A stretch of 64,000 nt of DNA. Origin: Cymodocea nodosa. Lineage: Eukaryota; Streptophyta; Magnoliopsida; Alismatales; Cymodoceaceae. The stretch covers positions 13,089,501-13,153,500 of the forward strand of contig CM072339.1 in NCBI GenBank assembly GCA_036874045.1. The letters are read 5' to 3'. Positions 26,765 to 53,621 of the stretch are shown one piece after another. A model generated the notes under the pieces. The model did not search any database and had not been told where the DNA came from. It saw only the letters and a list, made by a program, of their open reading frames with translations. The position numbers were made by a program, and so were the translations under genes. How positions within the stretch are numbered: the first letter of the stretch is position 1; every line of letters begins with the position of its first letter.

Positions 26765-28484
26765 TGTTTAATTTTTCGACAACGGTACTAGAAAACTTAT
26801 TTGTCTTGTTAACTTCTATTTGTAACTTAGTTAATTTATTTTTATGCTTATCAGTAATCCCTTTTTAGAAGTCAACAAATCATCTTTCACACAAATTAGA
26901 TATCAATTCTAATTTGTATTTTAACTGCAAGTGCACAGTGTATATTGTATTTGTGTGCAAGTACAGGTTGATCCCATAGAGAATTGAGGAAGAATTGTGT
27001 ATTGTACCGTTTTTAATAATAAAATTTATATATTCAGTAAGCACTCCGTTGAGTTATAGCTAACTCAACGAACTAACCTCGTGAAATTGAAATAACTCAA
27101 TGAACTAACCTCGTGAAATTGAAGTAACTCAATGAAGCTATCTATCCAGTTTAATACTACTATTTACAGAGAAATTCGGTCAACCATTGAGCAATTCCAC
27201 AGATTATAAATAACATCAATTAAGCTCTTTAATGCTAGTTAATATTAGATTTATCATTCAGCAATACTTACATTCAGATATTTCAAACAATAACCACTAA
27301 AATCTTTTAAGTATCAGGAACGATTCAATTTCAGTAAATTGTAATACTATTCTTTATTTTCTAAATTAAACAAACATGAAACATTTCAAACACCGACAAT
27401 GATAACATTAATCACGATACAAAACAAACAATACAACACTCAAATACTAACTATAAACACAGATAAGTTGTTTTTGGAATTTTTGTTTTTATATGATCAT
27501 GAAAATGGGCAAAAGGTGAAATGTAGAAGTAATCTCTATCGATAGTAAAAACTTTCGTTACTACATGCGACGTGATTACACCACTAAAAATTTAACCACT
27601 TACAATTCTATCTCCTCTCCCTATAGAATCGTGAGTCTAGAATTGCAAGTTGATCTCCTCTTCAGCATACTGGCATCAACCTGAAACCAAGGCTAGAAGC
27701 TTTACAATTTCCTACGATATGAGTTGGTGCTTGGTGAAAATGGCTTCCCTTCCTGCGACGCGATCACTCCTCTTAGTGGTTGTCAGACACCGTGTTTAGC
27801 TCGGAATCGACCCAACATTAGGAAAGTATCTTCATAGACCTTCGATGGTTGGTAATTATGGTGGTGGTGGTGATGGTAGTGTGGAAATTCAGGGAACTTC
27901 CGTCGCTGCTTGTAGTTAGCGCGGTCCTCCTCCTCTACACACACATTGGCCACCACCCCCTTTCATTTTTTTTCTCCTTGTCTTTTATATTTCTTAGTAG
28001 TAACTACTTCTACTTTGATAATCGATTGGATTTCCTTCGTTCATATCAATGATGGTAATTTCTTCTTCCTTCCACGAGCGATTTCCTACGTGATACATGC
28101 AATCGTGGTTTTCCTTTGAATGTCCTATTTCTGTAACTGCTACAGTGACATATTAGAAAATAAATGGTTCGTGGAGTTATAGATAACTCAACGGACTTAC
28201 TTCGTTGATTTAACTATAAAACACACGTGCAATAAAGAAATAAGCCACTAACATAACGTGTTACCTTAGTATGTATTCATGTAACTCAACGCGTACAGTT
28301 ATGCTAACTTAACGGGTTAAACATGTGCATCTCACGTGATATACTAAAGCATTTAAATTCAACACGTGCATAATTCTATCTTAACAAGTTCAAATATTTT
28401 GGACACTTACGAACCTAACTATCCGATGCTCAGATGCATTTTGAATAGTTAACAAATAACTTACCAAAAATCCACTTAAGTCAT

Positions 28485-30672
28485 TGTTTGTGTTTTCCCA
28501 GCACTACACCAAAAAAACTTGGATTTGCTACTTCTGTTTTTACTTAGTTAATTTATCTTTATGCCTATTCTTTCTTTTAGAAGTAAACAAACAACCTTTA
28601 ATACAATTTAGATATTAATTCCAATTTGTACTTTAACTACAAGTGCACAGTGTCTATTGTATCATTGTGCAAGTACAAGTCAATCCCATAGGGTATTGCT
28701 AAAGAACTTGAGAACTGTTCGTTTGTTAATAATCAAATTTATATATTCAATAAGCTCTCCGTTGAATTACAGTTAACTCAATGGACAAAGTTTGTTGAGT
28801 TATGACTAACTCAACGGACTAACCTCGTGGACTTAAGTTAACTCCATGAGCCTGTCTTTTCTTTTTAATACTGCTATTTATAGAGGAATTCGGCCAACCA
28901 TTGGGCGATTCCACAGATTGTAAATAACATCAATTAAGCTCTTTAATGTTAGTTAACATAGGATTTATCATTAAGCAATACTAACATTCAGATAATTCAA
29001 ACAGTAACCATTAAAATCTTTAAGTCTTTTGAACGAACCAATTTTTGTAAACTGTAAAACTAAAACAATCACAACATTGACAAAGATAACATTAATCACG
29101 GTACAACACAAACAATACAACACTCAAATACAACATACAAACATAGATAAATTATTTTTGGTATTTTTGTTTTAATATGAACATGGAAATGGGCGAAAGG
29201 TGAAATGTAAAGTAATCTCACTTGATAGTAAATACTTCCGACACACTTGCAATACGATTACACCACTGAAAATTAAACCACTTACAATTTTGTCTCCTCT
29301 CCCTATAGAATTGTGAGTCTAGAATTGCAAGATGATCTCCTCTTCAGCATACAGGCATCAACCCGAAGCTAAGGCTAGAAGCTTTACGATCTCCTAAAAT
29401 ATGAGTTGGCGCTTGGTGAAAATGGCTTCCCTTCCCACGATGCGATCACTCCTCATAGTGGTTGTCAGGCACTGTGTTTGACTCAGAATCGACCCAATAT
29501 CAAGAAAGTATCCTCACAGACCTCCGATGGTTGGTGATTGTGGTGGTGGTAACGATGGTTGGTGTGGTACTTCGGAAAATCGCCGATACTATCTGCAGAA
29601 AGCTCGGTGCTCCTCCTCTGTATACATTGGCCATCCATCGATCACACACTTTACTTCTTTTTCTTCTTCTCTTTTATATTTCTTTAGTAGTAACTACTTC
29701 TGCTTGAATGGTCGGTTGGATTTCCTTCATTCATATCAACGACGATGCTTTCTTCTCCCTACACGATACGTGCAGTCGTGGTTTTTCTTCCAACTATCCT
29801 ATTTCTGCAACTGCTACAGTGGCATATTAGAAAATAAATAGTCCATGGAGTTACAGATAACTCAACGGACTTTCTTCGTTGATTTAACTATAAAACACGT
29901 GCATAAATTTAACTATCTGATGCTTAGGTGCATTTCGGATACTTATAAACTTAACTATCTGATGCCCAGATGCATTTCAGATAGTTACAGATAACTCACC
30001 GATATATAACTTAAGTAAATCTACCAGATCTCGACACGTGTCAGCAGCAGTTTAATCATAAAATAACATTTTGGAGAGTTACAAAGCTAACTATCCGATG
30101 CTCAGACGCATTTCGGATAGTTAGAGATAAGTCACCGAAAATCCACTTAAGTCACTTTCCTAGAACATGACATGTGTCCTCAGCTATTTTAGAAATAAAA
30201 AGAGATTTTAGAGAGTTATACATATAACTGTCCAATGCCCAACTGCAATTTCGGATAATTATAGATAACTCACCGAAAGTTCATTTAAGTCATGCATTAT
30301 GGTTTTGACACGTGTACTTCAGGAAATAATAAAATATTCTTTCAAAACATAACTGTTCGAAAATTTAAACATAACTATCCGACATGTTCAATCTGTTAAA
30401 CATAACTGTCCAAAATATGTTCGGTATGTTAAACATAACTGTCTGAAATATCAGAAAATTTGACTACTTAAGAGTTTCACAGCCTACAACTTACCGACAG
30501 TTCAGAAATGTACTAAATTGACATTAATTCTCCAAAATTAAGCAGATTCTTCAATTAAAGCATATAACAGTGCAATTATAGCATAATGGCTTAATTCTCA
30601 TATGATAAGCTAAATATTATGCAATTAACCATCATTTAACCGTTAATAATATGCACTTTTTCATTCTAAACA
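28485..30672 (-). repeat. 3' LTR of the Athila-type element
   Basis: TGTTTAGAATG...AACACAAACA on the - strand. It contains GTTGAGTTA / AACTCAACGGA inverted motifs near 28,760-28,850 and 29,853-29,892, then a U3 with CGGATAGTTA, TAACTCACCGAAA, ACTTAAGTCA and CACGTGT boxes (29,890-30,480). The conserved 'gcaagtgcacagtgtctattg' block lies near 28,640. Confidence 0.88.
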
Positions 30673-32402
30673 CTTCCCTCATACCTAAATTTTGCTAGTC
30701 CCTTAGCAAACTAAGATCTAATTAATTGGTCTTTCAAAAAGTGCTAGAATTAATTCTTCATCTTTCTTTTTTTCTTCTGTTTAGCATAAAAATATATTCT
30801 GTATTTTTTAGTAATCAACCTGCAAATATACTTAGAATATATGTAAATTACATACAAAGTATATCATCATCACATAGGTGTTAATTATATTATCGTTTGT
30901 TTTTCTTTTCATCATCTGTCATCTTGAATTTTCCAATAAGATTTCTAGAAGAAATTTCAACAACATACGAGTCAAAGTACAATCCAATTCAATATGATTA
31001 AGACTAGAATAAAGAATTGTATCTCCATTAAACAACTTCAAAAGTCAATTCTAGATAACAGAAAATATACTCGATTCATAAGATATCTGTATTTCACAAA
31101 ACACTTGTATCTTTTCAGAACAATATTTTTTTTTTTTTTCGTACTTTAAAAGTTAATTTGACAAGCTTGAATCAAACAAGAGCTTTCTAATGTACCCATG
31201 TAATGAGCTTTCAGTCAACAATCCCAGATCTAATCAGGATCTTAGGTTGCCAGATTTCAAGAGTCCTTTTTCCGGTCAACAATCCTTACATACCTATCTA
31301 CTCAAGTACAAAAGGCTCGTGATCAAACAAGTCAATAAACTCTCAAATTTTTCCTTTTTTTTAAAAAAAAAAAAATACAAACATTAAACAAAACATTAAT
31401 CACATACTGTATATGTATATATTTCATTAATACAGATGTAGTAAAACATCAATCTCATATAGTTCTACTTCTATCATTTACTGTAAATATGAATCCATAA
31501 CAATAAGCTCATACTTTTTCTGTAGTTTAATAAGATCTACACATAAATCATTCTACAAGTTCAATCAGTCAAATTAAATGTATCTTTCATCATATATGTT
31601 TCATTTAATCTAGAATTCACATCTCAGCTCCTTCAGGACTTCAAATAATTTACTGATTTTTCATTAAGCATTCTGATTTCATTTTAAAATCGTGAAACTG
31701 TTAAACTCATGAAATTCAAAAAAAACATAAGAAATTGTATCTAGATTTGCATAAATAGTAAATTCTATAGCATCTTATATAGCCTTCTAAATATAACATA
31801 CAAGCAGTTACAGTTTATATAAATTTTACCGTCTCAATTATCGGATAGTTATAGCAAGTTCATAAAAATTTTTAATTTCCATAACTTTGCAGTACCATTT
31901 TAATTCCTTTAATTAACAAACTTACATGATTGTTACTTTAATTACCTCCCCCCCATACCTACATTTTGCATTGTCCTCAATGTAAAATATTTGACAATAA
32001 GTACAGTAATTGTAGCAGGCATGAATACAGTGTTGTTTGATTTAAAATTCAGGATATGTAATTGGTTACATACCTTGTTATGTTTGTATCTCCTTCTACA
32101 TATTCTGATTTTTAATTCTGAAAAACTTTTCATTCATAGATAAAAGCAAAATATAAAAAAAAATAACACTTAATAGATATTAATAAATCAGTGTCTTATG
32201 TGGAACCCAGGCTCCTATGCCTTTGGCGGCTCACAAGCAAGCTAGTTAGTTTCCCAGAACAAATACTAACAAACTGGATTGATATTTTGTTTTGTTTTTT
32301 TTTTCTTTTAAAAAAATAAACATGAAAACTTCAAAAAAACAAAAAAAAATTTCTAAACATAAACGTAGAATACACACAACATTAAATACACAAAATCATA
32401 GC
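30673..32402 (-). other. 3' region of the Athila-type element
   Basis: No gene seen. The - strand has 'TTGAGGACAATG' (complement at 31,970-31,983) followed by a GGGGGGGGAGG tract (complement near 31,946-31,955). This pair is typical of the 3' non-coding region of plant Athila/Tat elements. The LTR-adjacent tract is 'tatgagggaag' at 30,673-30,683, a weak PPT. The rest is AT-rich with a T-run near 31,125 and an A-run near 31,365. Confidence 0.6.
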
Positions 32403-33540
32403 TTAAGAACATGATTGAAAAGTAGGAACAAATGGAATAAATGTATCAGTCCAAGCAAACTTTTTAAGCATAGTTCTTCTTGCTATTAATTCTGTTTTAA
32501 TGCAGTTCTTGTTCCTTGTTAATTTGTAAACATGTAATATATTATAAATTCCAAATACAAGTGTATTACCATTAATGATATGAAATGCAGAAAGGGATCC
32601 TTTTTGATTCCAGGGTAATGTAGAAATTTCTATTTCTACATCTATTTCAATATACTCCTCTTCCCACTTCCATTCATTTATGTCTTTCATAATCCATATT
32701 TGAAATTTCATCAATTCATCCAACCATCTTATTAGACATAAAGTAGGATCATCTTCGTCATTATACCACATTCCTATTTGAATTTTATTAAATTCTTCAG
32801 ATGGTGGTTTAGCTATTTCTCTCGATATAGGTAAAATTTCTATATATTCATCATAACTGTCTATGCTCATTATATATAAATCAGATCCAAATGCTATTGA
32901 TATATTTGTGATTAGATATATATATCCATCAAGTATGACATGTGTTTGGTTAATTAATAATTTCCATCCTAGATATATCATAATATTTTCATTCCAAGAT
33001 CTATTTAGAAAGTTATACACACTTAAGCGTAAATCTTCACCCCAATTTCCTATAGGTCTCCAATAATATAATTTTTCAGGAATTGCAGAATTTTTATCAG
33101 AAAAAATCAAAGCTGATCCACAATTTACAGTTGGTACTTCAAATCTATTAGGTCTTCCTATATTCCATTCTTCTCCTTATAGGATTTCTTATCAAAATAT
33201 CAGGTAATAATAAACTTGCATACCTTGGTCTCGTCCTGTATATGATTAATCCTTCATCTATCCCCATGATATGATTTATTCCTTCTAATGTATTGGGTGG
33301 AATTCCAGTAGTTTCTTCCATAGCCAAATATTCATGGGTATTTGAACTATGATTAAATGACCTCCATATAAATCCATCTCTAATCTTAGTCATTTTTGCA
33401 CCTTGTAGTCCCTGAAAATATTTTTCTTCAATACAGTCTTTAATTTCTTTTGATACACAACACAGTCTGCACAGATCTTTAGCTGATAAATTACTCAGTA
33501 CTTCCCTTAGTGCATCCAATGGTAATTGCATCAATTCCAT
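32403..33540 (-). pseudogene. F-box protein ORF carried by the Athila-type element
   Basis: The N-terminus has an F-box: LPLDALREVLSNLSAKDL, then 'CRLCCVSKEIKDCI' (about residues 6-38), matching the plant F-box pattern of LP-x-D-x-L-x-x-x-L, a lysine-leucine pair and a CVSK segment. After it come about 330 residues with aromatic and beta-rich segments ('YYWRPIGNWGEDL', 'LYIMSIDSYDEY') that look like an F-box-associated domain, but no Kelch or LRR repeat is evident. F-box proteins bind SKP1 and hand targets to SCF ubiquitin ligases. The ORF is on the element's coding strand, 304 bp after the capsid gag, and a second gag copy (53.6 kb) is followed by the same F-box start. About one break is apparent. 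Confidence 0.72.
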
Positions 33541-33599
33541 TTTTCGATTCTGTATAACACAAACAAAAATTTAGCAAAGACAAAAATTAACATAACTAC

Positions 33600-33670
33600 T
33601 ACACACCCTTGTGGAGTTAAAGAATAACTCAACGGACTAAGTTCATTGAGTTAAGGACTAACTCTACGAT
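33600..33670. promoter_or_regulatory. AACTCAACGGA motif cluster before the F-box ORF
   Basis: 'ggagttaaagaataactcaacggactaag' and 'cattgagttaaggactaactc' form inverted pairs 60-130 bp upstream of the F-box ATG. The same motif family is in the LTRs. The matching site of the second copy is 53,755-53,815. Confidence 0.5.
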
Positions 33671-33843
33671 ACTATTAACTAAAAATAAAAACATATATAC
33701 ATATAGATAGTTGCTTCAGATATGCTGCTTCATTCAGCTATCCTCCTAGAAGAGGTATCAATTTCATTAACAGTTCTATTGATAGGATTAGGTATTGTTT
33801 GTATTAGCAATCCTCTAGTAGGTCTACCTTCCATTGGTTCCTT

Positions 33844-35007
33844 CTATCTAAGTGGTATATTTCTATTTTGATTTTGAATTGCAGCATTTCCAAATACAAA
33901 ATCTAGACAATTGTTTAATTGTTGGATTATCTTTTCTAATTTCTCTATTCTAGATCCTTGTTCAATTAATGCTTCATAACTTATGTTCTTCTCATTTATA
34001 TTTTCTCCTCCTTGAAAATTATTGTTTCTCCAAGATAAATTCGGGTGATTTCTCCAATTAGGATTATAAGAATTTCCCAAGTTATCTCTCTCGTTTCTAG
34101 CATAAATAATATCTAAATCATTTATGTTTGCATTCTTTTCTGCTAGTTTTTGATTTAATGATAACTCTTCTATTTTCTTTGTTAATTAATTTAATTTCAC
34201 CTCAAGCATTGTACTTGAATCTATTTCATGCATTCCTCTTGGCAATATTTTTTTATCTACAATAGCTTCAGCTAAGTTTTCCCACTATGCAGTTCTTTTT
34301 GCAAAGTTTTCTAAATATGCCTATGCTTCTTCACTACATAACTTTAAAAATACATTTTGACAAGTAGATTCTAATAAAGATTTTGTTGAAACATCTACGC
34401 CTTCATAAATTATACCTATTAATTGTGCTTTACTCATTGCATGATGTGGACATTGAGTAAGTAAATCTTTAAATCTTTCAAAATATTTCCAAAATGATTC
34501 ACCCTATTTTTGGCTACACATTAATATTTCTTTTTTCTTTTTAATCGTTTGATGTGTTGGATAATATTTTTCTAGAAAAACAGAGCAAAATTCAGTCCAT
34601 GTAGAAATTGAATTAGGCGATAGAGTATATAACCATCTCTTAGGTGTGTCTTTTAAAGAAAAAGGGATATATCTAAGTTTAATAGCATCTATACTCATGT
34701 TTGGCATTTTCATCATTTGACAAACTTCATTAAATTCTCTAAGGAAATAATAGGCATCCTCTCTTTCTAATCCATGAAAATGTGGCAATTGACTAATATA
34801 GTTAGATTTCAGTTTAAACCTATCTCCCTCAAAGTTTGGCAATCGAATACAAGAAGGTTCATCAACTAATTCAGGATACAGAATCTCTCCTAATGATTTT
34901 TCTACTGGAGCAGCCATCTCTACGTTCTCTTTTAAAGAAAGGTTAGCTACACCCCAAAGAATTTCGTTAAAGTTCAATTCAAAAAATTTTTCAGTACTCC
35001 TTTGCAA
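33844..35007 (-). pseudogene. Capsid part of Athila-type Gag, fossil, located downstream of pol
   Basis: Retrotransposon Gag domain of the Athila/Tat type: 'LPHFHGLEREDAYYFLREF', 'IKLRYIPFSLKDTPKRWLY', 'FLEKYYPTHQTIKKKKEI', followed in other frames by the expected 'GESFWKYFERFKDLL' and 'CPHHAMSKAQL' segments. The end is Asn-rich ('NPNWRNHPNLSWRNNNFQGG') as in Athila Gag. No zinc knuckle follows; that part is found at 47.4 kb, next to the 5' LTR. In a normal Athila the whole Gag precedes the protease. Several breaks. Confidence 0.82.
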
Positions 35008-36011
35008 TGAAAATTCCTAGGTAGGTGTTCTTACTAATTGTTTAGTGCTTAGAGAACGGGTCCATGTGCTCATAAATAAATAGTAGAAGATTAATTACAT
35101 ACCAGTCTAAAGCTTTCCATTCAATAAATATTTGTTGTCGGATGAAGTTGAATCAGTTGCTTCTCCTTTTAGTTCCTCCAACGCATTCTCCTTTCTTTTA
35201 AAAGTGTTGGTAACTCGTAAATAATATTCTGTTTTATATATATACTGCACATCCATAAAGTGAATAAATCTCGTTACAAGAATGTGTCTTGCAACGTGCA
35301 TCGTGGTTCCTGTTTTTATGGGTACATGTATCACTACTAATTTCAAATTTTGGTAACCACTAAATCGACGAAGTTTCGTTCGTGGTTAAAAGAATAACTA
35401 TTCTGCTTAATCCACGAACTAACCTCGTTGAGTTACAAATAACTCAATTGAACACAGTCGATTACTGTTGCTAACACCACGGACTAACTTCGTTGAGTTA
35501 CAGATAACTCAACGGAGTGACCTTATATTATATTACTGACCTCGTAGAGTTACGTTTAACTTAATGAACTTACTTCGTTGAGTTAACACTTGGCAACTTC
35601 TAAGTTTTACTCTCGTAAGTTCCTCTCTATTCTTTTCTTTATTTATTTTGCTAACTGAAATAAAGTTAAATCTATGTCATTAATGCATCATTCTAATTAA
35701 AATTCATTTAAATCTAAACATTATATAAAGATTTAACTTGCAGGTCATTTTATGTTATGCAGAATTTACATTTTACCTTGCAACATGCAGAAATTTTTAA
35801 GCATTTATCCTGTCATTCAGTAAATTGTAAATTTGTTAAACATTCTTTCATAATATTCCACAAAATATATATAATAGTCAATACATTCCATTCATTTTCA
35901 CATCCAAAACACGTATGAAAATTGCATCTGAAAAATTTACATTCATTAATATGAATCAATTACATTACAAGTACATCATACAATTTTACACAAGTAGACG
36001 AACAATACAAT
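35008..36011. promoter_or_regulatory. Leader of capsid gag with motif array and TATA-like box
   Basis: No gene I can support. Inverted GTTGAGTTA / AACTCAACGGA motifs lie at about 35,395-35,590. A TATATATAAA on the - strand (about 35,236-35,246) is roughly 230 bp before the gag ATG. The same ~0.7-kb leader precedes the second gag copy (55,160-55,960), so it travels with this gag. Confidence 0.5.
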
Positions 36012-38230
36012 TTAATCTCTATTCCTTAGTTCATCTACTTCCTTCTAGAGTTTTTCTAATTGAATCCCTAATTGATTAATCCTTTCTACTGCTCCCGTAA
36101 TTCCTCTAAACGGTACAGCTAGTTCTGCAGCTACAAAATTTCTGTATTCTTTCACTGAAATGGTTCTAGATCTGATCCTTTTTTATGCCCATTTCGTGAA
36201 ATCAATACAGTCCACCATCAGCAGTGGAATCAAATCTCCATAAAATAATTTCTTCTTCACTATTTTCAGCTTGGAGATAAAAACTACAGACCAATTTATT
36301 TGAATCCTATTTACAACTGCATATGTGGCCCATTTGACAAATTGACTTAATTCTATGTCATGGCCCTATCGTTGGTAGACATTTTTAATCAAAATGTTAG
36401 CTACCATGTGTGCTTTACCATTTAAATGCTTCAATCTGTTTAATAAAGGCACACCAGGATTGATAGCTAAATAATCCTTAATTTGCTATTCTGTCCACTC
36501 GACTATAGTTGTATCTTCCAAAATTTTTATACCTTCATTCTTTAAACCAAAAATGTTGTGGAGAAGCTCTAGTGTTATCTGTACATCAGCTTCCTCCACG
36601 TTGGAAATTAATCCTCCTTCTCTTTCTCTTAAATTTGCATAAAAATAGGGCACTAAATTCTCATAAACTGCGTGCCCTCTTTCTTAAGAAATGAATTGCA
36701 GTAGACCTTGGAATTCAAATAAATCTTTGATTTCTTGCATTCCATCCCAATTTACTGGTCTACTGTAAATAATGTCGTAACCCCTTATTTCTTGGTATTT
36801 GGTATAAGCTTCCCGACTACAAAAATGTACTTTATTCAAAATTGTTGTTTCAATCGGGTCAGGAAGGTGACTTTGTTGTTCTAGAGGGGTTTGTACTTAC
36901 TCTTCCTCTAACATAGGCTGCATTTGAACATTCTCTACAGATTCTTGAATTTTTGCTTTTGCTTTTGTCTATGGTGGTGAGCTAGCAGAACTCTCCACTC
37001 TATCTTAAATTCTTTCCATAAATTGCTGAAGAGTTTCTTGCTCTTCAATGGAATCTGTAAAGTTATTTTTGTCCAAATGGCTTCTTTCAACCTCTTCATG
37101 TTCTGCTCTTTCTTCTTCCTCCTGACTACCAATCTGTTCTGTTACTGTTCTTTTTGATTCTGTAATAGGTTGGGATGGAGTAACGGGCAATTCAATTTCT
37201 ACCCTAATTTTTGTTCTTTCTTCTTATACAGGCTGTAGACTAATTTCAGCCTGATTTTTTTCTTTTCTTTGCTCCTGCTGCTACAACTCCTACTCCTCCT
37301 CAAAATTGAATAGTAGGTTTATAAATATTTGCTCCATAGGCCCTGTAAAAATTGGTACTTCAGATTTAATTTCCTCATATTCAGGCACTTTTTCTTTTCC
37401 TTTCTTTTTTCTGATTAGTTGTGCCTATTCTTCCTCTTCATCTTCTGAAATTAAATCTACAAAATAGGCTCTACAGGCTTTCGAGCCACAGGTACTGGCT
37501 CTTCCTATTTAACTCTTTTTATAACTACTGGTCTCGAAGGACCAGCCTCTCCGACAGCACTTGATTTAGTTACTGCCTGATACTATTCAACTTTTATTTT
37601 GTACTAGGCCCTTATCCTTTCTTCGACCCTTTTTTTCTTAATGGCATCATATAAAATATGTGCCTTAGCCGTAGCTATTTCTTGAGTATCACCTTGGTCT
37701 CTTATTGTTTTGACCAAGCTAGTAAATTCTTTCTCTTCTTCTTCAATTCTTGGCCAAGCAAATGCAACTCGTGGCACTAGCTCTATTGGTCGAATTAGAG
37801 GTCCTAACTACTGTTCCTCAGGAACAGGTCTTTCAGCAGTTGGTTCTTCCTATTCTTCAGTTGCCTCTTCTTCATTTTCTTTCCTTTCTTGCTCCCAAAT
37901 CGCCCATCTAGCTCGTCTATAGATTCGTCTTTTGAACCAGAGCTGGGACTTACGTTGGATTAATTCTAGGGCAACTTCATTACTTGGCCTTATTTTTCTT
38001 TCCTTGCTTATAGCAATTTCTGTTGCAACCTTTATGCTTGTTTCCATTATTTGAGGTATTTGTATACTCAATTCTACTAAATCTCTTCTGAAATTGAAAA
38101 GTTCTGATTCTACCTTCTATAGCTCTTTCTCTCTTGTCGTATTTCTGATCTTCTACTGCACGTGCCATTCTTCTGATTGCTTCAGAAATTCTGATGTGTC
38201 AACAGCCTCTTCCTAGAACTCGGGTGTCAT
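36012..38230 (-). pseudogene. Envelope-like ORF of the Athila-type element, fossil
   Basis: From ATG at 38,230: an acidic/basic, low-complexity N-terminal half rich in Glu, Lys and Arg, then a folded C-terminal domain with IKDLFEFQGLLQF, 'YAVVNRIQINWSVVFIS', 'KKLFYGD' and a terminal heptad-like coil. It clearly parallels the Sirevirus copies at 56-58 and 61-63 kb (IRDLFEFQGLIKF, NRIQINW, KLFYGD). It resembles the plant 'putative transposon protein' domain common after pol in Athila and Sirevirus elements. No signal peptide or membrane span is evident, so a true envelope role is unsupported. Several breaks. Confidence 0.7.
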
Positions 38231-38799: not shown

Positions 38800-41602
38800 A
38801 AATAAAGCTCGAGTAGTCCTCCACTCTAACTTCTTCTATAATTCCAAAGGAGCTTTTTGGTGTTTTTAGAATAGGTTTCAGTCTTTGTCCATTTACTTTA
38901 AATATATTCTGATTTTTAGGATTTTCAATTTCAGTAACTCCATAAGGATAAATGTTTCGAACTATGTAAGGTCATGCCCATCTAGATCTTAATTTTCCTG
39001 GATGGTTATGGAGTCTAGCCATATAAAGATATACTTCTTGTCCTATTTCAAAGCTTTTTGGAATAATTATTCTATCATGCTAGAATTTAATTTTTTCTTT
39101 TTCTCTTACAGTCTTCGAATAAGCTTTATTTCTAAATTCTTCTAATTCAATTAATTACATTTTTCTATTTTCAGCAGCTTGACTTAAATTAGTGTTCAGA
39201 GTTTTTAATGCCCAATAAGCTTTATGTTCTATTTCAGTAGGTAAATGACAACTTTTTCCATATACTAGCCTAAAAGGTGGCATACCTAAGCTCATTTTAT
39301 AAGTAGTTCTATAAGCCCAAAGTGCATCTATCAATCTATTAGCTCAATCTGTTCTAGTAGGATTTACTACTTTTTCTAAGATTAACTTAATTTGTTTGTT
39401 TGCACTTTCTACTTGTCCACTTGTTTGCAGATGATATGATGTTGCAATTTTGTGGTTTACTCCATATTTCTTCATTAAAACTTCAAAACTTCTATTACAG
39501 AAATGAGTTCCTCTATCACTGATACCACCCCCAACAATATGTAATTAAATTAATTAGATATAGGAAATTGACCTATAAAATCTATTCTCTACACATCAAA
39601 GATTTCAACCTCAACAATAGGATTAAGAGTCATCATATTCCTCTTTGATATTCTTCCTATTTATTGACATCTTAAACAACTTAAGCAATATTTATGAGCA
39701 TCTTTGAATAGTGTTGGCCAATAAAACCCACATTGTAGAATTTTTGCAGTAGTTTTCCCTAAACCAAAATGCCCTCCACAAGCTTGGTCATGAAAGAAAG
39801 ACAATATGCTCGAATATTCAGTTTCTGGAACACACATCCTTAAAATCAGATCAGGACATTCTTAAATAAGTATGGGTCTTCCCAATAGTAATATTTTACT
39901 CTTGACAATATTTCTTATCCTGTTTATTCCAATCCTTAGGTGTTAGACCAGTAACTAAGTAATTAACTATGTTTGCATACCAAGGTATTGTGTTGATGGT
40001 CATTAATTGTTCATTAGGAAAATTATCCTTAATTTCAATATTTGATTTTTCTATTTGTAATCTTCATAAATGATCTACTACTACATTCTCACAACCTTTT
40101 TTATCTTTAATTTCTAGATCAAATTCTTGCAATAATAATATCCATCGGATCAATTTAGGTTTAGTTTCTTTTTTCTTTATTAGATGTTTTAAAGCTGAAT
40201 GATATGTGTATACTGTTACTTTAGATCCAATCAGATATGATCTAAACTTTTCTAAGGCAAACACAACAGCTAATAATTCTTTTTCAGTAGTTGTGTAATT
40301 AACTTCAGCATCATTTAAGGTTTTGCTTGCATAATGAATCACTCTAGGAGATTTTTCTATCTTCTGTCCCAACACTGCTCCTACAGCAAAATCAGATGCA
40401 TCGCACATTAATTCAAATGGATGGCTCCAATCAGGTGCTTGAATTATAGGAATTTAAATTAAGCTAGTCTTAACTTTGAAAAATGCTTCCTTAAAATCTT
40501 TATCAAAGTTAAATGAAACATCTTTTAATAGATTAGTTAAAGGTCTAGCTATCTTGCTAAAGTCTTTAATAAATCTTCTATAAAAACCAGCATGTCCTAG
40601 AAATGATCTTATATCTTTTACTGATTTAGGTTCTGGTAGATTAGAAATTACTTCTATTTTAGCTTTATCTACTTCCAACCTTTTCTTAGAAACAACATGC
40701 CCTAAGACTATTCATTGTTTTACCATGAAGTGACATTTTTCCCAATTTAAAACCAGATTTTTTTCCACACAACGTTTTAATATTAAGTCTAAATTTTTTA
40801 AACATACTACATATGAATTGCGATATACAGTAAAATCATCCATAAATATTTCTAAAAAATCTTCAGTCATTCTAGTAAATATGCCCTACATACACCTTTG
40901 AAAGGTAGCTAGCGCATTGCATAATTCGAATGACATTCTCTTAAAAGCATAAGTTCCATTATGATAGGTGAAAGTTGTTTTCTCTTGATCCTCTAATGCT
41001 ATTGGAATTTGATTATACCCTGAATACCCGTCTAGGAAACAAAAATATTTTTTCCCTGCTAATCTTTCCAGCATTTGATCTATAAAAGGTAAGGGAAAAT
41101 GATCTTTCCTAGTCACAACATTCAGTTTTCTATAGTCTATACATACTCTCCAACCTGATTGAATTCTAGTAGGTATCAAGTCTTGACTTTCATTCCTAAT
41201 AATTGTTAATCCTGATTTCTTGGGAACTACATGGATTGGACAAACCCACGAGCTATCAAAAATCGGATAAATTATGTCATTATCTAACCATTTAATTATT
41301 TCCTTCCTGGCTACTTCTTTAAGGTTTGGATTTAATCTCCTCTCAGGAATTGTAACAGGTTTAGCATTCTCTTCTAAATATATGTGGTGACAGCATAAAG
41401 TTGAACTTAACCCTTTTATATCAGTCATAGTCCATCCTATTACTTCTTTATAACCTTTTACTACATCTTTTAATTTAGCTATTTGATCCTCTTTTAAATC
41501 TGAAGCAATAATGATTAGACAGGTTCGTTTATCTTCCAGAAATATATAGGTTAATTCATGAGGTAAAGGTTTTAATTCTAAATGTTGCCCATTAGAAGCT
41601 AG
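38800..41602 (-). pseudogene. Athila-type pol: RT, RNase H, integrase (fossil)
   Basis: RT (41,600-40,450) has 'PLPHELTYIFLEDKRT', 'GWRVCIDYRKLN', 'DHFPLPFIDQMLERLAGK' and 'CFLDGYSGYNQI', the diagnostic Athila wording. RNase H (about 40,408-40,064) has [15 protein letters not shown] and '[20 protein letters not shown]'. Integrase (about 39,900-38,820) has the HHCC-type 'HKYCLSCLRCQ', 'TSYHLQTSGQVE' and the C-terminal 'PGKLRSRWA' segment. Order RT-RH-INT is that of Ty3/Gypsy. Several breaks; not functional. Confidence 0.9.
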
Positions 41603-41607
41603 AGCTC

Positions 41608-44117
41608 TGTTTAGAATGAAAAAGTGCATATTATTAACAGTTAAATGATGGTTAATTGCATAATATTTAGCTTATCATATAAGAATTAAGCCATTATGTT
41701 ATAATTGCACTGTTATATGCTTTAATTAAAGAATGTGCTTAATTTTGGGGAATTAATGTTAATTTAGTACATTTCTGAACTATCGGTAAGTTGTAGGCTG
41801 TGAAATTCTTAAGTATCCGAATTTTCTGATAATTCAGACAGTTATGTTTAACAGACCGAACATGTCGGATAGTTATGTTTAAATTGTCGAGCAATTATGT
41901 TTTGAAAGTTTCCTAAAGTTAATAACTAGTCGTTTCGTTGCATTAATTTCTCATTTAGCTAAACGTTAAGTTAACGTGTGTTTTTATTGAAAAGCATGAT
42001 ATGTTTTAAAGTTATATCTTCTGTATCATGAACAGTGCACGTTTTGATAACTCGTTAAGTTAGTGAGTAAAAGAAGAGACGAACTCGTTAAGTTAGTATT
42101 ATACACGTGGTGAAATTATAAGTTACGAATGTTGTATTGTATCACGTGAGATGCACATGTTTAACTCGTTAACATAACTAAATGCATTGAGTTGCTATAT
42201 TGAACACTAAGGCAACGCGTTAGGTTAGCATTATAAACTTAAGTTGTTATTTTTGCATGTGGTAAAATTCTTATTATAAAAACATTTGTTTATTACTGAA
42301 TCAATGAGTTATCTATAACTATCCAAAATTGCAGTTGGGTCGGACAATTATATATATAACTCTCCGAAATCTCTTTTTATTTATAAAATAGCTGAGGACA
42401 TGTGTCATGTTCTAGTAAAGTGACTTAAGTGGATTTTCGATGAGTTAGCTGTAACTATCCGAAATGCATCTGAGCATCGGATAGTTAGACCTGTAACTCT
42501 CCGAAATGTTATTTTATAATTAAAATACTGCTAACACGTGTCAAGATCTGGTAGATTTACTTAAGTTATATATCGGTGAGTTATTTGTAAATATCCGAAA
42601 TGCATTTGAGCATCGGATAGTTAAGTTTATAAGTATCCAAAATGCACCTAAGCATCGGATAGTTAAGTTTATACACGTGTTTTATAGTTAAATCAACAAA
42701 GAAAGTCCGTTGAGTTATCTGTAACTCCACGGACTATTTATTTTCTAATATGCCACGTAGCGGTTGCAGGAATGGACAGTTGGAAGAAAAACCACGTTTG
42801 CACGTATCACGTAGGAATTCACTCGTCGCAGGGAGAAGAAATCATCGTCGTTGATATGAATGAAAGAAATCCAACCGACCATTCAAGCAGAAGCAGTTAC
42901 TACTGAAGAAATATAAAAGGCAAGAAAAAGAAGAAGAAAAGTGTGTGATCGATGGACGGCCAGTGTATACAAAAAAGGAGCACCGAGCTTTCTACAGACA
43001 GTATCAACGATTCTCTGAAGTATCACACCAACCATCGTTACCTCCACCACAATCACCAACCATCGAAGGTCTGTGAGAATACTTTCTTGATGTCGGGTCG
43101 ATTTCGAGCCAAACATAGTGCTTGACAACCACTGTGAGGAGTGATCGCATCGCGGGAAGGGAAGCCATTTTCACCAAGCACCGACTCATATTTCAGGAGA
43201 TCGTAAAGCTTTTAGCCTTGGCTTCGGGTTGATGCCTGTATGCTAAAGAGAAGATTATCTTGCAATTCTGGACTCGCGATTCTATAGGGAGAGGAGACAG
43301 AATTGTAAGTGGTTTAATTTTCAGTGGTGTAATCGCGTTGCAAGTAGTGTTGGAAGTATTTACTATCAAGTGAGATTACTTTACATTTCACCTTTCGCCC
43401 ATTTCCATGTTCATATTAAAACAAAAATACCAAAAATAATTTATCTATGTTTGTATGTTGTATTTGAGTGTTGTATTGTTTGTGTTGTACCATGATTAAT
43501 GTTATCTTTGTCAATGTTGTGATTGTTTTATGTTTGTTTTAGTTTTACAGTTTACAAAAATTGGTTTGTTCAAAAGACTTAAAGATTTTAATGGTTACTG
43601 TTTGAATTATCTGAATGTTAGTATTGCTTAATGATAAATCCAATGTTAACTAACATTAAAGAGCTTAATTGATGTTATTTACAATCTATGGAATCGCCCA
43701 ATGGTTGGTCGAATTCCTCTGTAAATAGCAATATTAAAAAGAAAAGACAGGCTCGTGGAATTAACTTAAGTCCACGAGGTTAGTCCGTTGAGTTAGCCAT
43801 AACTCAACGAACTTTGTCTGTTGAGTTAACTATAATTCAACGGAGAGCTTATTGAATATATAAATTTGATTGTTAACAAATGAACAGTTCTCAAATTCTT
43901 CAGCAATTCCCTATAGGATCGACCTGTACTTACACATTAATACAATAGACACTGTGCACTTGCAGTTAAAGTACAAATTGGAATTAATATCTAAATTGTA
44001 TTAAAGGTTATTTGTTTACTTCTAAAAGAAAGAATAGGCATAAAGATAAATTAATTAAGTAAGAACAGAAGTAACAAATCCAAGTTTTTCTAGTGTAGTG
44101 TTGGGAAAACACAAACA
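41608..44117 (+). mobile_element. Solo Athila-type LTR inserted in pol
   Basis: TGTTTAGAATG...AACACAAACA, 2,510 bp, opposite in orientation to its host element. An exact target duplication AGCTC lies on both sides (41,603-41,607 and 44,118-44,122). No internal region, so an LTR-LTR recombination product. It is about 0.32 kb longer than the host element's own LTRs because of an extra block at 41,916-42,310 that is also in Sirevirus LTR D. Confidence 0.9.
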
Positions 44118-44132
44118 AGCTCCTAATTGAAC

Positions 44133-44180
44133 ATCATCATTTTCTAAATTAATTTCTTCTAGATCTCCTTCTATATTTAT
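44133..44180. repeat. 48-bp direct repeat flanking an LTR insertion (left copy)
   Basis: Identical to 45,745-45,792 over 48 bp. Both are - strand Athila sequence just after the protease. They bracket the insertion at 44,181-45,744. Confidence 0.9.
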
Positions 44181-45744
44181 AATTTATCTATGTTTAAGTG
44201 TGGGGGGGTGTTCAAGCTTTAATTTTGCCCATTTTTAATGAATTTTATAAGTAATTTTGCATGATATTATATATCTATGATGGATAAATGATATTAATTA
44301 TGGGTAATATAAGTCTTGAAATATAGTGCAATATAGAAATTTAATTAACAAGTGCATCCCCCATTGGATATAATTTTACATGAAACACATTGATTTATTT
44401 TGCATGTCCTATGTTAGCTAACGTCTCTTGGAGTTCAACTTCCATTAATTATAGGTAACATATATATGGGAGGAGCTTAATGCAAAAGACCAAAGAAGAT
44501 GTAAAGAATCAAAAGTTGGTGGACTAAACTTTAAAGAAGAAGACATGCCAACACCTTATTGGCCCTCCTAGATCTATGGCATCTTATTGGCTTGGTGATA
44601 AAACCAAGGTGCCACATCAAAGAGAGAGAAGACAAAACAACATAAATACAAGGGGAGAGGATTTTCGGCCAACACCTTGGTGCTTCCAATGAGAGAAAGA
44701 AAGAAGAGAAGAAAGCTTGGAGGTGAGGCTTATGCTTGCAAGGAGACCATCCATTGATGCTATTCACCATTCCAAGGGCTAAGGAGAAGACGTCCAAGCT
44801 TGGAGGTGGATTTGCTGCCAAGTTCCATTGAATTCAAAGCTCTAGAGAAGAAGATAAGAAGCTCCTAAGGTAGTGACAACTCTTAGAGTTTATTATTTTC
44901 TTGTATATAAGGAAGAATTGATGAGAAATGGTGGTGAATATCTCAATTATATGTCTTCTTAGCTAGATAGAGTTCAATGAATGTATATGAATGTTTAATT
45001 CTTCTTTTCAACTTCTAATTTGCATCCTCTATTCACATGTATTGTTGGGGCTGTTGGTGAGGCTTTCACACGAGTGAATGACACTCATCAATGGTGGCTT
45101 GGCGCATTTGAGAAGAAGGTGTGAATTCAAAGAAGAAGAAAATAAGTGTTGATGTTCATTTGAATGAAGAACCTATCACTTATATCTAGTTGTTAATTTT
45201 AATTTCAATAGTTAATTGAGTTTGTTATATCTTATATTGATCACATTTTGTCCTAATCAATCTCCAAAAAGAATTTCTAATGCAAGTAGTATGGTATAGT
45301 TTAGCTAGATTAGCAAATAGCATAGTTGCATGCATTTAGTATAAATTAGAATAGAGTAGTATAGTCTATTGAACCTTGTTGTTTTATTTTTCTTTCCTTA
45401 ATATTGATGCATTGATATCACTTCTGAAATCACGTGGAACTTGTGTGCATGTTATAATTGAATGAGTTGATAGATTTACAAGTAAAGAAATTGATTCACA
45501 TCACCATTTTCCACTACAAATTGCCTTGAAATTGCATGATTTGTGAGCTTGTGTTAACTTTGATTATTCTACATTCACATGTCATTAATTTACTGAAGTA
45601 TACCTAAGAGCTTGAAGAACAAGTTGAGTAATTGTTGATTAAGTCATAAACACAATCCTTGTGGAAGAATGACCTGTATTTGCCATGTACACCAAAAGAA
45701 CTATGCACTTGCAGTAAAGCTTGAGCTAAAAATATAGCTCAACA
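44181..45744 (+). mobile_element. Truncated Gypsy element: PPT plus LTR 'X'
   Basis: Only 28 bp of internal sequence ending in 'aagtgtggggggg' (an Athila-style PPT, 44,195-44,208), then an LTR TGTTCAAGC...GCTCAACA (44,209-45,744, 1,536 bp). The LTR end shares 'actatgcacttgcagt' with the Athila LTRs but is otherwise a different family. There is no 5-bp duplication; instead 48 bp of target are repeated. The LTR holds no gene I can support. Confidence 0.75.
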
Positions 45745-46524
45745 ATCATCATTTTCTAAATTAATTTCTTCTAGATCTCCTTCTATATTTATGCTTTCAC
45801 TTTCCTCTAAAGTTTCAGAATTGATTTGCCTATTTAATTCTTCTTGAATCACATCATCTAACATATCTCCTTCATCTTCTAAAAAGTCTATGGTATGTAA
45901 GGACATTTCTAACTCTTCAAACCTTTCTGGTTTGAAAATATTTAATTGAGTATCCTCATTACCATATGCTAACTTCATTACTCTAGTTTTACAATTTATA
46001 ATAGCCCCTGATATTGCTAAAAATGGTCTTCCCAAAATTAAAGATGTATCACTATTTTTATGCTTAATTTGTTGGGAATCCAAAATTACAATATCAATAG
46101 GATATATAAAGTTTTTGATTTTAATTAAGACATCCTCTATTTTTCCTCTAGGGTATCTTATACTTCTATCAGCTAATTGAATAACCATACTAGTAGGAGT
46201 TAAGTCTTCTAATCCTAAGGATGCAAATATATCACTTGGCATAATATTTATACCTGCACCTAAGTCTATTAAGGTTCTTTCTAGAATGGCATTTCCTATG
46301 GTGCATGATATAACAGGGATTCTAGGATTAGATAACTTTTTAGAAATTTGTGGCAGAAATAGGGAACTACTTTGCTCAGCTAAAAAGACATTTCTAAGAA
46401 CTTTTCGCTCTCTTTTCTTAGTACACCAATCCTTCAAAAATTTAGCACAAGGTGGCATTTTCTGCAATAGATCTAACAAAGGAATGTTAACTTGTACTTT
46501 TTCAAAAATTTCTCTGATTTTTTC
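45745..46524 (-). pseudogene. Athila-type aspartic protease, fossil
   Basis: Retropepsin with the active-site segment 'RTLIDLGAGINIMPSDIF' (D-L-G-A box), the flap-side 'IQLADRSIRYPRGKIEDVL' and 'SLILGRPFLAISGAIIN', which together are the standard Athila protease signature. It is preceded by 'KMPPCAKFLKDWCTKKRE', also typical. In the living family it cuts Gag-Pol. Breaks exist in the surrounding polyprotein. Confidence 0.88.
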
Positions 46525-47465
46525 TTATTTTTCAGGTATTGTTTGTTGTAATCTTTCAGGATAGGGTGCTAAAAATTTTGATTTAAAAGATTCTTTTTCT
46601 TTCAGTTGATTTGTTTGATCATTTTTAGCCTCATTAGCAAATTCAAATTGTTCTTTAGTGATTTCTAGATTTTTAGCTATTACATTTTCATTGTCATTTT
46701 GATTTTTACTCTTATCCACCTTCATATCATTTTCATTTTGAATTCTTGGTAGTATATCAGTTCCAGATCTTAATGTTACACATACATCTTCCAAATTTTC
46801 ATTACTCTTATGATGTTTTTGTATATCATTTTCGTAATTATGATCTTCAATTGTTTTTAGTTTTAAAGTGCATTCTTTAAATTCTCTTGCATTAATATTT
46901 TCTGTTTACTGTATATTTTACAAATTATGCAGGTTTATAACATTATAATTTTCATCGTCCTATTGCATAACCTGTATTTTCATTGTATATTTGTCTAATG
47001 CTTTTAATTTTCTTTCTAGATCATCTAATCTCATTGCATTCAATTTTTGATCAATTTTCATTATGGTTTTTTCAATTTCGTAAATTATATCCTTTTTAGG
47101 TTCTGAATATGCTTCCTAATAATTTAATTGGTTAACTTCTTGTTGTTGACACATAAAGTATTCTAGTTTGTCTAGATTTTACTCTATACTACGCTCCAGT
47201 CTGTCATACCTATCCCAAACTTCAATGTCTCTCAACATATTACACATTCTATACTGACCATTAGTTGGGTAAACTATAGGATTCTCATATTCGGATCTAT
47301 TATACTGAGGATAATTCATTTGTTGTTCATGAGATCTAACCATCTGTAAACATCTCAATTTCAAATAGTTAGAAATGTCGTGTCCTTCAGAATTGTAGAA
47401 TTCACATATGCTAATTATAGGTTTCAGAAATCTTTGAGCATAAGCATATCCATATTCTCAATTAC
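46525..47465 (-). pseudogene. Zinc-knuckle (nucleocapsid) part of Athila Gag, fossil
   Basis: Begins just after the PBS. 'ICEFYNSEGHDISNYLKLRC' is a C-x-x-[CY]-x4-H zinc-knuckle-like segment; then come 'QQMNYPQYN', a helical 'MRLDDLERKLKALDKY' and 'VCVTLRSGTDILPR'. These all normally follow the capsid domain in Athila Gag. Here no capsid domain precedes them: only about 110 bp separate this part from the PBS. The capsid lies 12 kb away at 33.8-35.0 kb. Some breaks. Confidence 0.72.
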
Positions 47466-47573: not shown

Positions 47574-47591
47574 TCCCTAGCGATGGCGCCA
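47574..47591 (-). other. Primer-binding site of the Athila-type element
   Basis: Reads TGGCGCCATCGCTAGGGA on the - strand, seven bases after the 5' LTR. It is close to TGGCGCCGTTGCCGGGGA, the tRNA-Asp-type PBS usual in Athila/Tat elements. Confidence 0.85.
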
Positions 47592-47598
47592 TAAAACT

Positions 47599-49780
47599 TG
47601 TTTGTGTTTTCCCAGCACTACACCAGAAAAACTTGGATTTGTTACTTTTGTCTTTACTTAGTTAATTTATCTTTATGTCTATTCTTTCTTTAGAAGTAAA
47701 CAAACAACCTTTAATACAATTTAGATATTAATTCCAATTTGTACTTTAACTGCAAGTGCACAGTGTCTATCAATGTGCAAGTACAGGTCGATCCCATAGG
47801 GAATTGCTGAAGAACTTGAGAACTGTTCATTTGTTAATAATCAAATTTATATATTCAATAAGCTCTTCGTTAAATTACAGTTAACTCAATGGACAAAGTT
47901 CATTGAGTTATGGCTAACTCAATGGACTAACCTTGTGGACTTAAGTTAACAACACGAGCCTATCTTTTCTTTTTAATACTGCTATTTACAGAGGAATTCG
48001 GCCAACCATTGGGCGATTCCATAGATTGTAAATAACATCAATTAAGCTCTTTAATGTTAGTTAACATTGGATTTATCATTAAGCAATACTAACATTCAGA
48101 TAATTCAAACAGTAACCATTAAAATCTTTAAGTCTTTTGAACGAACCAATTTCAGTAAACTGTAAAACTAAAATAACATAAAACAATCACAACACTAACA
48201 AAGATAACATTAATCATGATACAACACAAACAATACAACACTCAAATACAACATACAAACATAGATAAATTGTTTTCGTATTTTTGTTTTAATATGAACA
48301 TAGAAATGGGTGAACAGTGAAATGTAAAGTAATCTCACTTGACAGTAAATACTTCCGACATTACTTGCAACGCGATTACACCATTGAAAATTAAACCACT
48401 TACAATTCTGTCTCCTCTCCCTATAGAATCACAAGTCCAGAATTGCAAGATGATCTCCTCTTCAGCATACAGGCATCAACCCGAAGCCAAGGCTAGAAGC
48501 TTTACGATCTCCTAAAATATGAGTCAGTGCTTGGTGAAAATGGCTTCCCTTCCCGCGACCTGATCACTCCTCACAGTGGTTGTCAGGCATTATGTTTGGC
48601 TTAAAATCGACCCGACATCAAGAAAGTATCCTCACAGACCTCTGATGGTTGGTGATTGTGGTGGTGGTAACGATGGTTGGTGTGGTACTTCGGAGAATCG
48701 ATGATACTATCTGCAGAAAGCTCGATGCTCCTCCTCTGTATACACTGGTCGTCTATCGATCACATACTTTACTTCTTTTTCTTCTTCTCTTTTATATTTC
48801 TTTAGTAGTAACTGCTTCTGCTTGAATGGTCGGTTGGATTTCCTTCATTCATATCAACGGCGATGCTTTCTTCTCCCTACACGATACGTGCAGTCGTGGT
48901 TTTTCTTCCAACTATCCTATTTTTGCAACCGTTATAGTGGCATATTAGAAAATAAATTGTTCGTGGAGTTACAGATAACTCAACGGACTTTCTTCGTTGA
49001 TTTAACTATAAAACACGTGCATAAATTTAACTATCCGATGCTCAGGTGCATTTCGGATACTTATAAACTTAACTATCCGATGCCTAGATATATTTCGGAT
49101 AGTTACAGATAACTCACTGATATATAACTTAAGTAAATCTACCAAATCTCGACACGTGTCAGTACAGTTTAATCATAAAATAACATTTCGGAGAGTTATA
49201 AAGCTAACTATCCAATGCTCAGATGCATTTTGAATAGTTAGAGATAACTCACCAAAAATCCACTTTCCCAAAACATAACACGTGTCCTCAGCTATTTTAG
49301 AAATAAAAAGAGATTTCAGAGAGTTATACATATAACTGTCCGATGCCCAACTGCAATTTCAGATAATTATAGATAACTCACCGAAAGTTCACTTAAGTCA
49401 TGCATTACGGTTTCGACACATGTACTTCAGGAAATAATAAAATATTCTTTCAAAACATAACTATTCGACAATTTAAACATAACTATTCGACATGTTCGGT
49501 CTGTTAAACATAACTGTCCAAAATATGTTCGGTATGTTAAACATAACTGTCCGAAATATCAGAAAATTCGAATATTTAAGAGTTTCATAGCCTACAACTT
49601 ACCAACAGTTCAGAAATGTACTAAATTAACATTAATTCCTCAAAATTAAGCAAATTCTTCAATTAAAGCATATAACAGTGCAATTATAACATAATGGCTT
49701 AATTCTCATATGATAAGCTAAATATTATGCAATTAACCATCATTTAATCATTAATAATATGCACTTTTTCATTCTAAACA
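47599..49780 (-). repeat. 5' LTR of the Athila-type element
   Basis: 2,182 bp, partner of 28,485-30,672, with the same motif series (GTTGAGTTA pairs near 47,870-47,950; CGGATAGTTA / TAACTCACCGAAA / ACTTAAGTCA / CACGTGT near 49,000-49,440). Confidence 0.88.
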
Positions 49781-53000: not shown

Positions 53001-53621
53001 ATAAAAACAAATATATATATATTATGCGTAAATGAAATTCAATCTAACCAAACGTTCCATCGAAAGATGCTTTCATTATAACAAAAGTAACAGTGATAAT
53101 ATTACTTTAAAAAGGAATAGTCGACTCAAATAAATGTGGTCGATCGTACTCTAATAAAATATATATATTATAATAATAAAATAAGGAACAACGAGATAAT
53201 GAATATATATATATATATATATGAACACATTTAATTTATGTTTAAAAAAAAATAAAGGGAACTTATGATGTTTTCGAAGGAAATACATATATTTAAAATA
53301 TAAATTTAGATACTTAAAAGGTAACATAAATATATAAAAGATCCAAGTGGAAATTGTTAACATGATAAAAAATATATTCAAAACTCATGAGTATAAACTA
53401 TCTATAAAAATTTATTGATTTTGGCTTGAATAAAACATGATAATGCCAAAATATGTAAGATATATTAAATACTCCTAGATAAAAGTATAAACTATCTATA
53501 AAATTTATGTTTTGGTTTAAATATAATGATGATGCCAACGTACGTATAAAATATGTTCAATACTCCCAAATAAGAGTATAATTTTTTTACATATAAAAAA
53601 CATATATAAAATATATTAGAT

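Follow-up and report, generated by a model that had tools for sequence, protein, structure and literature searches.

A probable resident F-box gene, with a putative SCF-adaptor role, beside a 3' capsid gene in an Athila-like retrotransposon family of Cymodocea nodosa

Does a plant-type F-box gene found inside a retrotransposon belong to the element family, or did it arrive there once? The question is raised by a 64,000-nucleotide (nt) stretch of the Cymodocea nodosa genome (hereafter the window; assembly GCA_036874045.1, contig CM072339.1, positions 13,089,501 to 13,153,500 of the forward strand; coordinates below are counted from its first letter). An initial annotation, made from the letters of the window, had placed such a gene on the coding strand of a 21.3-kb long terminal repeat (LTR) retrotransposon, between a capsid gag gene and the 3' LTR, and this placement is borne out by an F-box profile match of 42.5 bits and by an LTR pair of 94.0% identity. 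We consider it probable that this F-box gene is resident in the family and no one-off capture, and that its product is a candidate adaptor of the host SKP1-cullin-F-box (SCF) ubiquitin ligase.

The gene is of the F-box type, with a putative F-box-associated (FBA) C-terminal part, and occupies 32403..33540 on the reverse strand. It consists of an N-terminal piece (33540-33151) and a C-terminal piece (33176-32403), and because the C piece lies in another frame than the N piece, the window copy carries one frameshift. A check against the Pfam F-box profile, which the initial annotation had proposed, gave a match of residues 4-41 of the N piece to PF00646 (4.9e-11, 42.5 bits), above the cut-off of 20.5. 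The C piece (33176-32406, reverse strand) matched TIGR01640 F_box_assoc_1 at E 8.6e-7 and 28.5 bits, under the curated cut-off of 37.9, and Pfam FBA_1 (PF07734) at E 0.032, also under its cut-off. Its single-sequence fold model reached a predicted local distance difference test score (pLDDT) of 36, too poor for use. In a protein database in which plant reverse transcriptases (RTs) are plentiful, the C piece drew 81 candidates with none at E 0.01, and the F-box half drew 60 with none at E 1. Viral contigs searched with the F-box, gag and RT pieces gave no match. The open frame of the window F-box was considered as a sign of selection and dropped, as 1.5 stops are expected and the probability of finding none is about 0.2.

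A second copy of the arrangement lies about 20 kb away, as had been annotated. At 53621..55966 on the reverse strand, alignment to the first copy identifies a second gag, the spacer and the first 20 codons of the F-box, in an older element. This stretch aligns with 33480-35774 at 85% identity, and its final 60 nt encode 20 residues that are 75% identical to the F-box start and in frame from the ATG. Between 53621-50091 and 33480-30673 no homology over 24 nt was found. The spacers of the two copies differ by 17%, the same as the LTRs of the 21.3-kb element differ from an older LTR described below, and the ratio of nonsynonymous to synonymous rates (dN/dS) between the two gags is 0.35 (bootstrap of the corresponding uncorrected ratio, pN/pS, 0.25-0.60). 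Both window gags have in common an in-frame TAG at codons 138 (34504-34506) and 211 (34285-34287), with their counterparts in the second copy. Descent from a dead ancestor was our first idea for these shared stops, but pN/pS is 0.28 for codons 138-300; since gag constraint persists past the shared TAGs, parallel decay or read-through is possible.

The extent of the linkage was assessed in the host genome (374.6 Mb, 28 contigs). The gag search returned 5538 loose first-look candidates, the best 150 of which were scored, with 150/150 matching. Twenty of these best 150 (every 7th row from the 2nd on) were chosen blind to the F-box; as the samples come from the best-scoring 150, old copies are under-sampled. 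An F-box followed gag downstream in the sense orientation in 18 of the 20 copies, the starts of the two genes lying 1373-1400 nt apart (1377 nt in the window). The exceptions are L032, where an LTR junction interrupts the F-box after about 30 nt, and L034, which is deleted from inside gag past the F-box. The genome search for the gag/F-box junction thus found that sampled family members do carry the F-box. Gag and F-box distances were correlated (r 0.81, 31 copies, 0/2000 permutations), which is as expected of long linkage. With the codon constraint described below, these results sustain the view of the initial annotation that the linkage already existed as the family spread and is not a one-off insertion.

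Starting from the F-box instead, 27 of the 28 top-ranked PF00646 loci of the genome belong to this retrotransposon family (L007 is without the family F-box), and a count of F-box "genes" in a genome of this kind may often pick up genes of elements. Among loci L011-L030, a full F-box start is present at 19 (L015, where the match begins at residue 4, stands outside this number); gag lies at most 2.6 kb upstream at 16 of the 19, and a Transposase_32-like open reading frame (ORF) within 5 kb at seven. The initial annotation had allowed that the same ORF might be found as a separate host locus. The three remaining loci, L012, L024 and L019, do lack gag within 2.6 kb upstream, but L012 and L024 stay aligned with the element through its 3' end and into the LTR, and L019 is made up of rearranged pieces of the element. 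In L012, L016 and L023, pol pieces and the F-box module are joined in one stretch. The same gag/F-box layout recurs at three loci, L027, L028 and L029, situated close to one end of contig C3 and on two small contigs, C26 and C28; judged by match layout alone, these are possibly duplicate assembly contigs. The three loci look like one stretch three times, so 14/17 is the stricter gag count; L028 and L029 were excluded from the codon counts and the distance test, and included in the 16/19 above and in the 40/44 and 3/44 below.

Codon comparisons covered 44 copies of the N piece, 43 of the C piece, 40 of gag and 10 of the Transposase_32-like ORF, the window included; codons with stops were skipped in the counts, and the pairs are not independent. 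Median dN/dS was 0.20 for F-box residues 1-45, 0.30 for the N piece, 0.49 for the C piece, 0.32 for gag and 0.23 for the Transposase_32-like ORF, with frame+1 controls of 0.49 (N), 0.54 (C), 0.53 (gag) and 0.63 (Transposase_32-like). Simulated neutral medians were 0.34-0.68 for residues 1-45, 0.57-0.72 for the N piece, 0.70-0.86 for the C piece and 0.67-0.78 for gag; as these fall below 1 by this method, a plain comparison with 1 is misleading. Gag is clearly under constraint. So is the N piece when set against simulations of similar divergence (5% tails 0.45-0.46), though not clearly against a pure-decay simulation (tail 0.17-0.30). Residues 1-45 alone, which are mostly common to 43 copies, are likely under constraint (tail 0.06-0.31), and the C piece moderately so (tail 0.35-0.52), its ratio being lowest, at 0.19, in residues 145-174. 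A comparison of the F-box with RT, also proposed by the initial annotation, could be made in part: the F-box domain stands at 0.20 across copies, and RT, comparable in three copies only, at 0.39-0.71. In-frame stops per 1000 codons, uncorrected for codon make-up, were 4.1 in the N piece, 7.8 in the C piece, 9.8 in gag and 12.4 in the Transposase_32-like ORF. A constrained resident F-box gene provides a concrete protein to study, in a family whose loose first-look candidates number in the thousands (the best 150 scored per search).

The neighbouring capsid gene is the other departure of this element. Its parts are ordered as LTR, primer site, the block of putative zinc knuckle, protease, RT, RNase H and integrase, Transposase_32-like ORF, capsid gag, F-box, purine tract and LTR. 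The gag is therefore split, with the capsid 3' of pol and beside the F-box. The capsid gag gene (33730..34917, reverse strand; PF03732, 6.1e-20) comprises 395 codons and a stop, with five internal stops in the window copy, and has no zinc knuckle. A 5' ORF (45742..47462, reverse strand) contains a putative zinc-knuckle-like start, the gag end and the protease, without the capsid. Its first residues, read by eye without a profile match, may be a zinc knuckle, and the protease (46.3-46.0 kb) matched PF13650 at E 4.3e-4 and 21.4 bits, under the cut-off of 24.3. RT, RNase H and integrase (38801..41671, reverse strand; PF00078 1.1e-22, PF17917 4.8e-35 and PF17921 3.1e-12) contain stops and frameshifts; the named top RT matches in the protein database are flowering-plant proteins and one bacterial metagenome-assembled genome, many rows being nameless. 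The Transposase_32-like ORF (36048..36956, reverse strand) matched PF20167 at E 5.4e-4 and 20.3 bits, under the cut-off of 45.

The one comparison element, L001, is a plant-like retrotransposon from a bacterial assembly and carries gag, protease, RT and integrase in this order in a single 2004-residue frame. The window 5' ORF aligns with the L001 excerpt from residue 668 on, i.e. from before the protease, and the window 3' gag contains the capsid region, with a gap at L001's zinc knuckle. Since the capsid gag is 5' of pol in L001, its position between pol and the 3' LTR is unusual. A genome search with the 5' ORF gave 4598 loose first-look candidates (best 150 scored, 150/150 matching), and 751 nt around each start were inspected for 20 of the best 150. 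Within 650 nt upstream of the 5' ORF, 0/20 had a capsid match, and a family LTR stretch lay upstream in 20/20. The LTR 3' end was 117-203 nt before the 5' ORF match in 18, L065 and L070 having another LTR stretch, and a primer-site-like word (at most 5 mismatches of 18, without a chance control) was present in 16. With an F-box downstream of gag in 18/20 copies and a 5' capsid in 0/20, the split gag with F-box is the usual state in the samples. The Athila plan of a capsid gag right behind the 5' LTR, followed by pol, is not what these 20 copies show, and for this reason we term the element Athila-like and not canonical Athila. The split departs from the single 5' frame for capsid and Pol seen in L001 and would offer a natural case of separate capsid expression.

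L001 and L002 are near-identical (99.7%) 9-kb plant-like retrotransposon stretches in unrelated bacterial assemblies (Solirubrobacter and Geminicoccus), probably as contamination. The end of the window's protease ORF is duplicated, 44130-44201 and 45742-45813 being 75% identical over 24 residues about 1.5 kb apart.

The boundaries of the 21.3-kb element are given by a 5' LTR (47599..49780, reverse strand) with TG..CA ends and an adjoining primer site, and a 3' LTR (28485..30672, reverse strand) delimited by alignment of the pair, at the identity given above. The primer binding site TGGCGCCATCGCTAGGGA (47574..47591, reverse strand), 7 nt past the 5' LTR, is one that we take to be of the tRNA-Asp/Athila type, and the type of primer site is presumably a likeness to Athila-type elements. 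The purine tract GAGGGAAG (30673..30680, reverse strand) stands directly 5' of the 3' LTR, and the flanks GTCAT/ATCAT form a target duplication that matches at 4/5 bases. With its LTR pair, primer site, purine tract, target duplication (4/5) and RT-RNase H-integrase order, the window element has the features of Ty3/gypsy. Empty-site alignment places the insertion in an older LTR on the reverse strand, split into a left part (26765..28484) and a right part (49781-50090). When both flanks were joined in silico they formed this older same-family LTR, with the alignment continuous across the junction, and all sequence between the LTRs is therefore this insertion or nested in it. The older LTR is a possible 3' LTR of the second copy, although no purine tract was seen before it. 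A solo LTR of the same family, inverted within pol (41608..44119, forward strand) and flanked by the perfect target duplication AGCTC, is a later nested insertion. Every part from LTR to LTR is visible only in the window element. In the decay of the two LTRs, C to T changes prevail (15% per branch at CG, 9% at CHG and 2.6% at CHH), a signature of methylation in all three plant sequence contexts.

A palindromic motif is shared between the LTRs and the 3' genes. In the window, CGTTGAGTTA-N4-TAACTCAACG alternates with the reverse order at N9, giving 32 pairs versus 0 in each of five shuffles, and 31 of the 32 pairs fall within LTRs of the family or in the leaders of the Transposase_32-like ORF, the two gags and the two F-boxes. 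The pair in the F-box leader (33625..33668, no strand assigned) is common to the LTRs and other leaders; beyond the palindrome array, leaders and LTRs have little in common. The palindrome is present in 40/44 F-box leaders of the genome at no more than one mismatch per arm and in 43/44 at two, where the shuffled control gives 0.05%. Folded as RNA, the window's leaders were more stable than their shuffles, with z of -5.3, -3.7 and -7.0 in the 21.3-kb element and, less markedly, of -1.7 and -2.6 in the second copy. We favour a promoter role in DNA, as a candidate shared enhancer; alternatively, the palindromes may act as hairpins in the mRNA leaders. The array has a 33-bp period and extends over window positions 2366-60676.

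The following course of events is proposed. An ancestral element would have acquired a host F-box/FBA gene, and its capsid gene would have been relocated 3' of pol. The palindromes may then serve as promoter elements for capsid and F-box, each of which would have its own mRNA, co-regulated with the LTR transcript. An LTR element needs more capsid than Pol, and capsid as a separate gene could meet this need. The F-box protein would enter the host SCF ubiquitin ligase, its F-box binding SKP1 and its C-terminal part selecting a target, and would direct to the proteasome some protein by which the element is kept in check, most likely one of host silencing or defence. The resident gene and the putative adaptor role together make up the reading that we regard as probable, and they suggest that the element may steer host protein disposal. 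That the target is a host factor limiting the element is a candidate proposal to which we would give somewhat less than even chances. Doubtful, if possible, is the wider idea of an abundant lineage rebuilt as a multi-transcript virus-like genome, in which capsid and SCF adaptor have both left the polyprotein order for the 3' end and are under LTR-type palindromic promoters; in this picture the SKP1-binding half of the adaptor would be conserved, its target half would evolve faster, and its task would be the degradation of proteins of host silencing or defence. Polerovirus P0, which drives degradation of ARGONAUTE1, is an F-box protein encoded by a viral genome, and on its precedent the initial annotation had suggested that the captured F-box could have acted against host silencing; the likeness would be one of kind, and ARGONAUTE a conjectural target here. 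To our knowledge, whether plant transposons oppose host control with their own proteins, as viruses do, is largely open.

Several points weigh against a resident gene for an SCF adaptor. Most F-box copies are broken, a frame of at least 370 aa being present in 3/44, and the stop-free frame in the window is no evidence, for the reason given above. The C piece at 0.49 is near its frame+1 control of 0.54 and only moderately under the neutral median of 0.70-0.86 (single-pair 5% tail 0.35-0.52), and its residues 121-150 have a ratio of 1.05. The F-box domain is short, and its single-pair 5% tail under neutrality extends to 0.06-0.31; RT offers ratios from 3 copies only (0.39-0.71). The FBA matches, TIGR01640 and PF07734, are under curated cut-offs, and neither a host source gene nor a homologue turned up in the protein database.

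Some of these points would suit a passenger, a host F-box gene captured once, early, and hitch-hiking without function since: the majority of copies are broken, and the method yields ratios below 1 without selection (neutral medians 0.34-0.86, frame+1 about 0.5). We nevertheless think this improbable, because the N piece stands at 0.30 against a neutral 0.57-0.72 and a frame+1 control of 0.49, C residues 145-174 reach 0.19, and in-frame stops are fewer in the N and C pieces (4.1 and 7.8) than in gag and the Transposase_32-like ORF (9.8 and 12.4, codon make-up uncorrected). The protein might instead be a dominant-negative decoy, in which the F-box domain by itself occupies SKP1 and blocks host SCF complexes, the C-terminal part being without a substrate role. 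The low ratio at residues 1-45 (0.20) and the closeness of the C piece (0.49) to its control (0.54) agree with a decoy, which becomes quite unlikely given that constraint on C residues 145-174 matches that on the F-box and that 379 aa are retained in all three unbroken copies among the 44. A variant of the resident-adaptor reading has the F-box protein target the element itself, as an SCF adaptor for capsid or Pol stability or stoichiometry, or for nuclear entry. The F-box adjoins the relocated capsid gene, the two co-diverge (r 0.81) and the same palindromes stand in both leaders; any two linked genes co-diverge, however, and the F-box/FBA architecture is typical of host adaptors acting on host proteins, so we see self-targeting as possible but unlikely. 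That gag and F-box were joined once by chance, and that a local or segmental duplication then produced the two window copies, which lie within about 20 kb, has hardly any probability, given a junction common to sampled copies on many contigs, spacers that differ by 17%, as do the LTRs from the older LTR, and a gag dN/dS of 0.35.

The putative adaptor gene and the 3' capsid may be set beside published elements; apart from the word searches, which covered main texts, what follows refers to excerpts of the papers cited. Athila-type Ty3/gypsy plant elements with extra 3' ORFs have been described (PMC7264820, PMC2410132, PMC11728184), and extra ORFs in the interval from pol to the 3' LTR are already known in plant elements (PMC7264820). 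The window element resembles them in its putative Transposase_32-similar ORF, as in a sunflower Athila element (PMC11728184), and in having additional ORFs in sense orientation in that interval, in families assembled by module recombination. It differs in its capsid gag 3' of pol, followed by the F-box, neither of which occurs in the excerpts on Athila-type elements. The 25-kb gypsy elements of Phalaenopsis, which carry an AlkB/2-ODD domain (PMC9289625), are likewise a giant plant gypsy family with a fixed host-type accessory gene, although that domain is an RNA demethylase. A survey of 121 angiosperm genomes reported 15 extra domains that pass its filter (PMC9289625); the word F-box is absent from the main text, a supplementary chart lying outside the word search. 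Burro giant gypsy elements of planarians carry extra domains tied to ubiquitination and apoptosis (PMC6431247), a likeness in ubiquitination-linked domains of an LTR element, whereas the host is an animal, the domains are others and the word F-box is absent from its main text. Sireviruses have palindromic repeated motifs, which in some elements lie 5' of env (PMC2829016); they are Ty1/copia elements with mostly a CGG-CCG core, in contrast to the CGTTGAGTTA/TAACTCAACG arms found here before 3' genes and in LTRs. In Thlaspi, retroduplication enlarges the F-box and SKP1 families, the former including an "LTR-gene" (PMC8764390), and the excerpts do not state a resident F-box gene of an element family. 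The word F-box does not appear in the main text of any of PMC7264820, PMC11963269, PMC11728184, PMC3726574, PMC6431247, PMC6317226 and PMC5408684. No F-box in plant LTR elements was found in the literature examined, which excludes subscription papers and supplements, so that an earlier mention is possible. Extra accessory genes in plant LTR elements are thus known, and the F-box with a 3' capsid gag is apparently new within that literature.

Just upstream of gag, the second copy in the window adjoins an inverted repeat of 2.9 kb and 94% identity (55960-58842 and 61019-63898). Each of its arms contains a Transposase_32-like ORF that is only 35-45% identical to the ORF of the 21.3-kb element.
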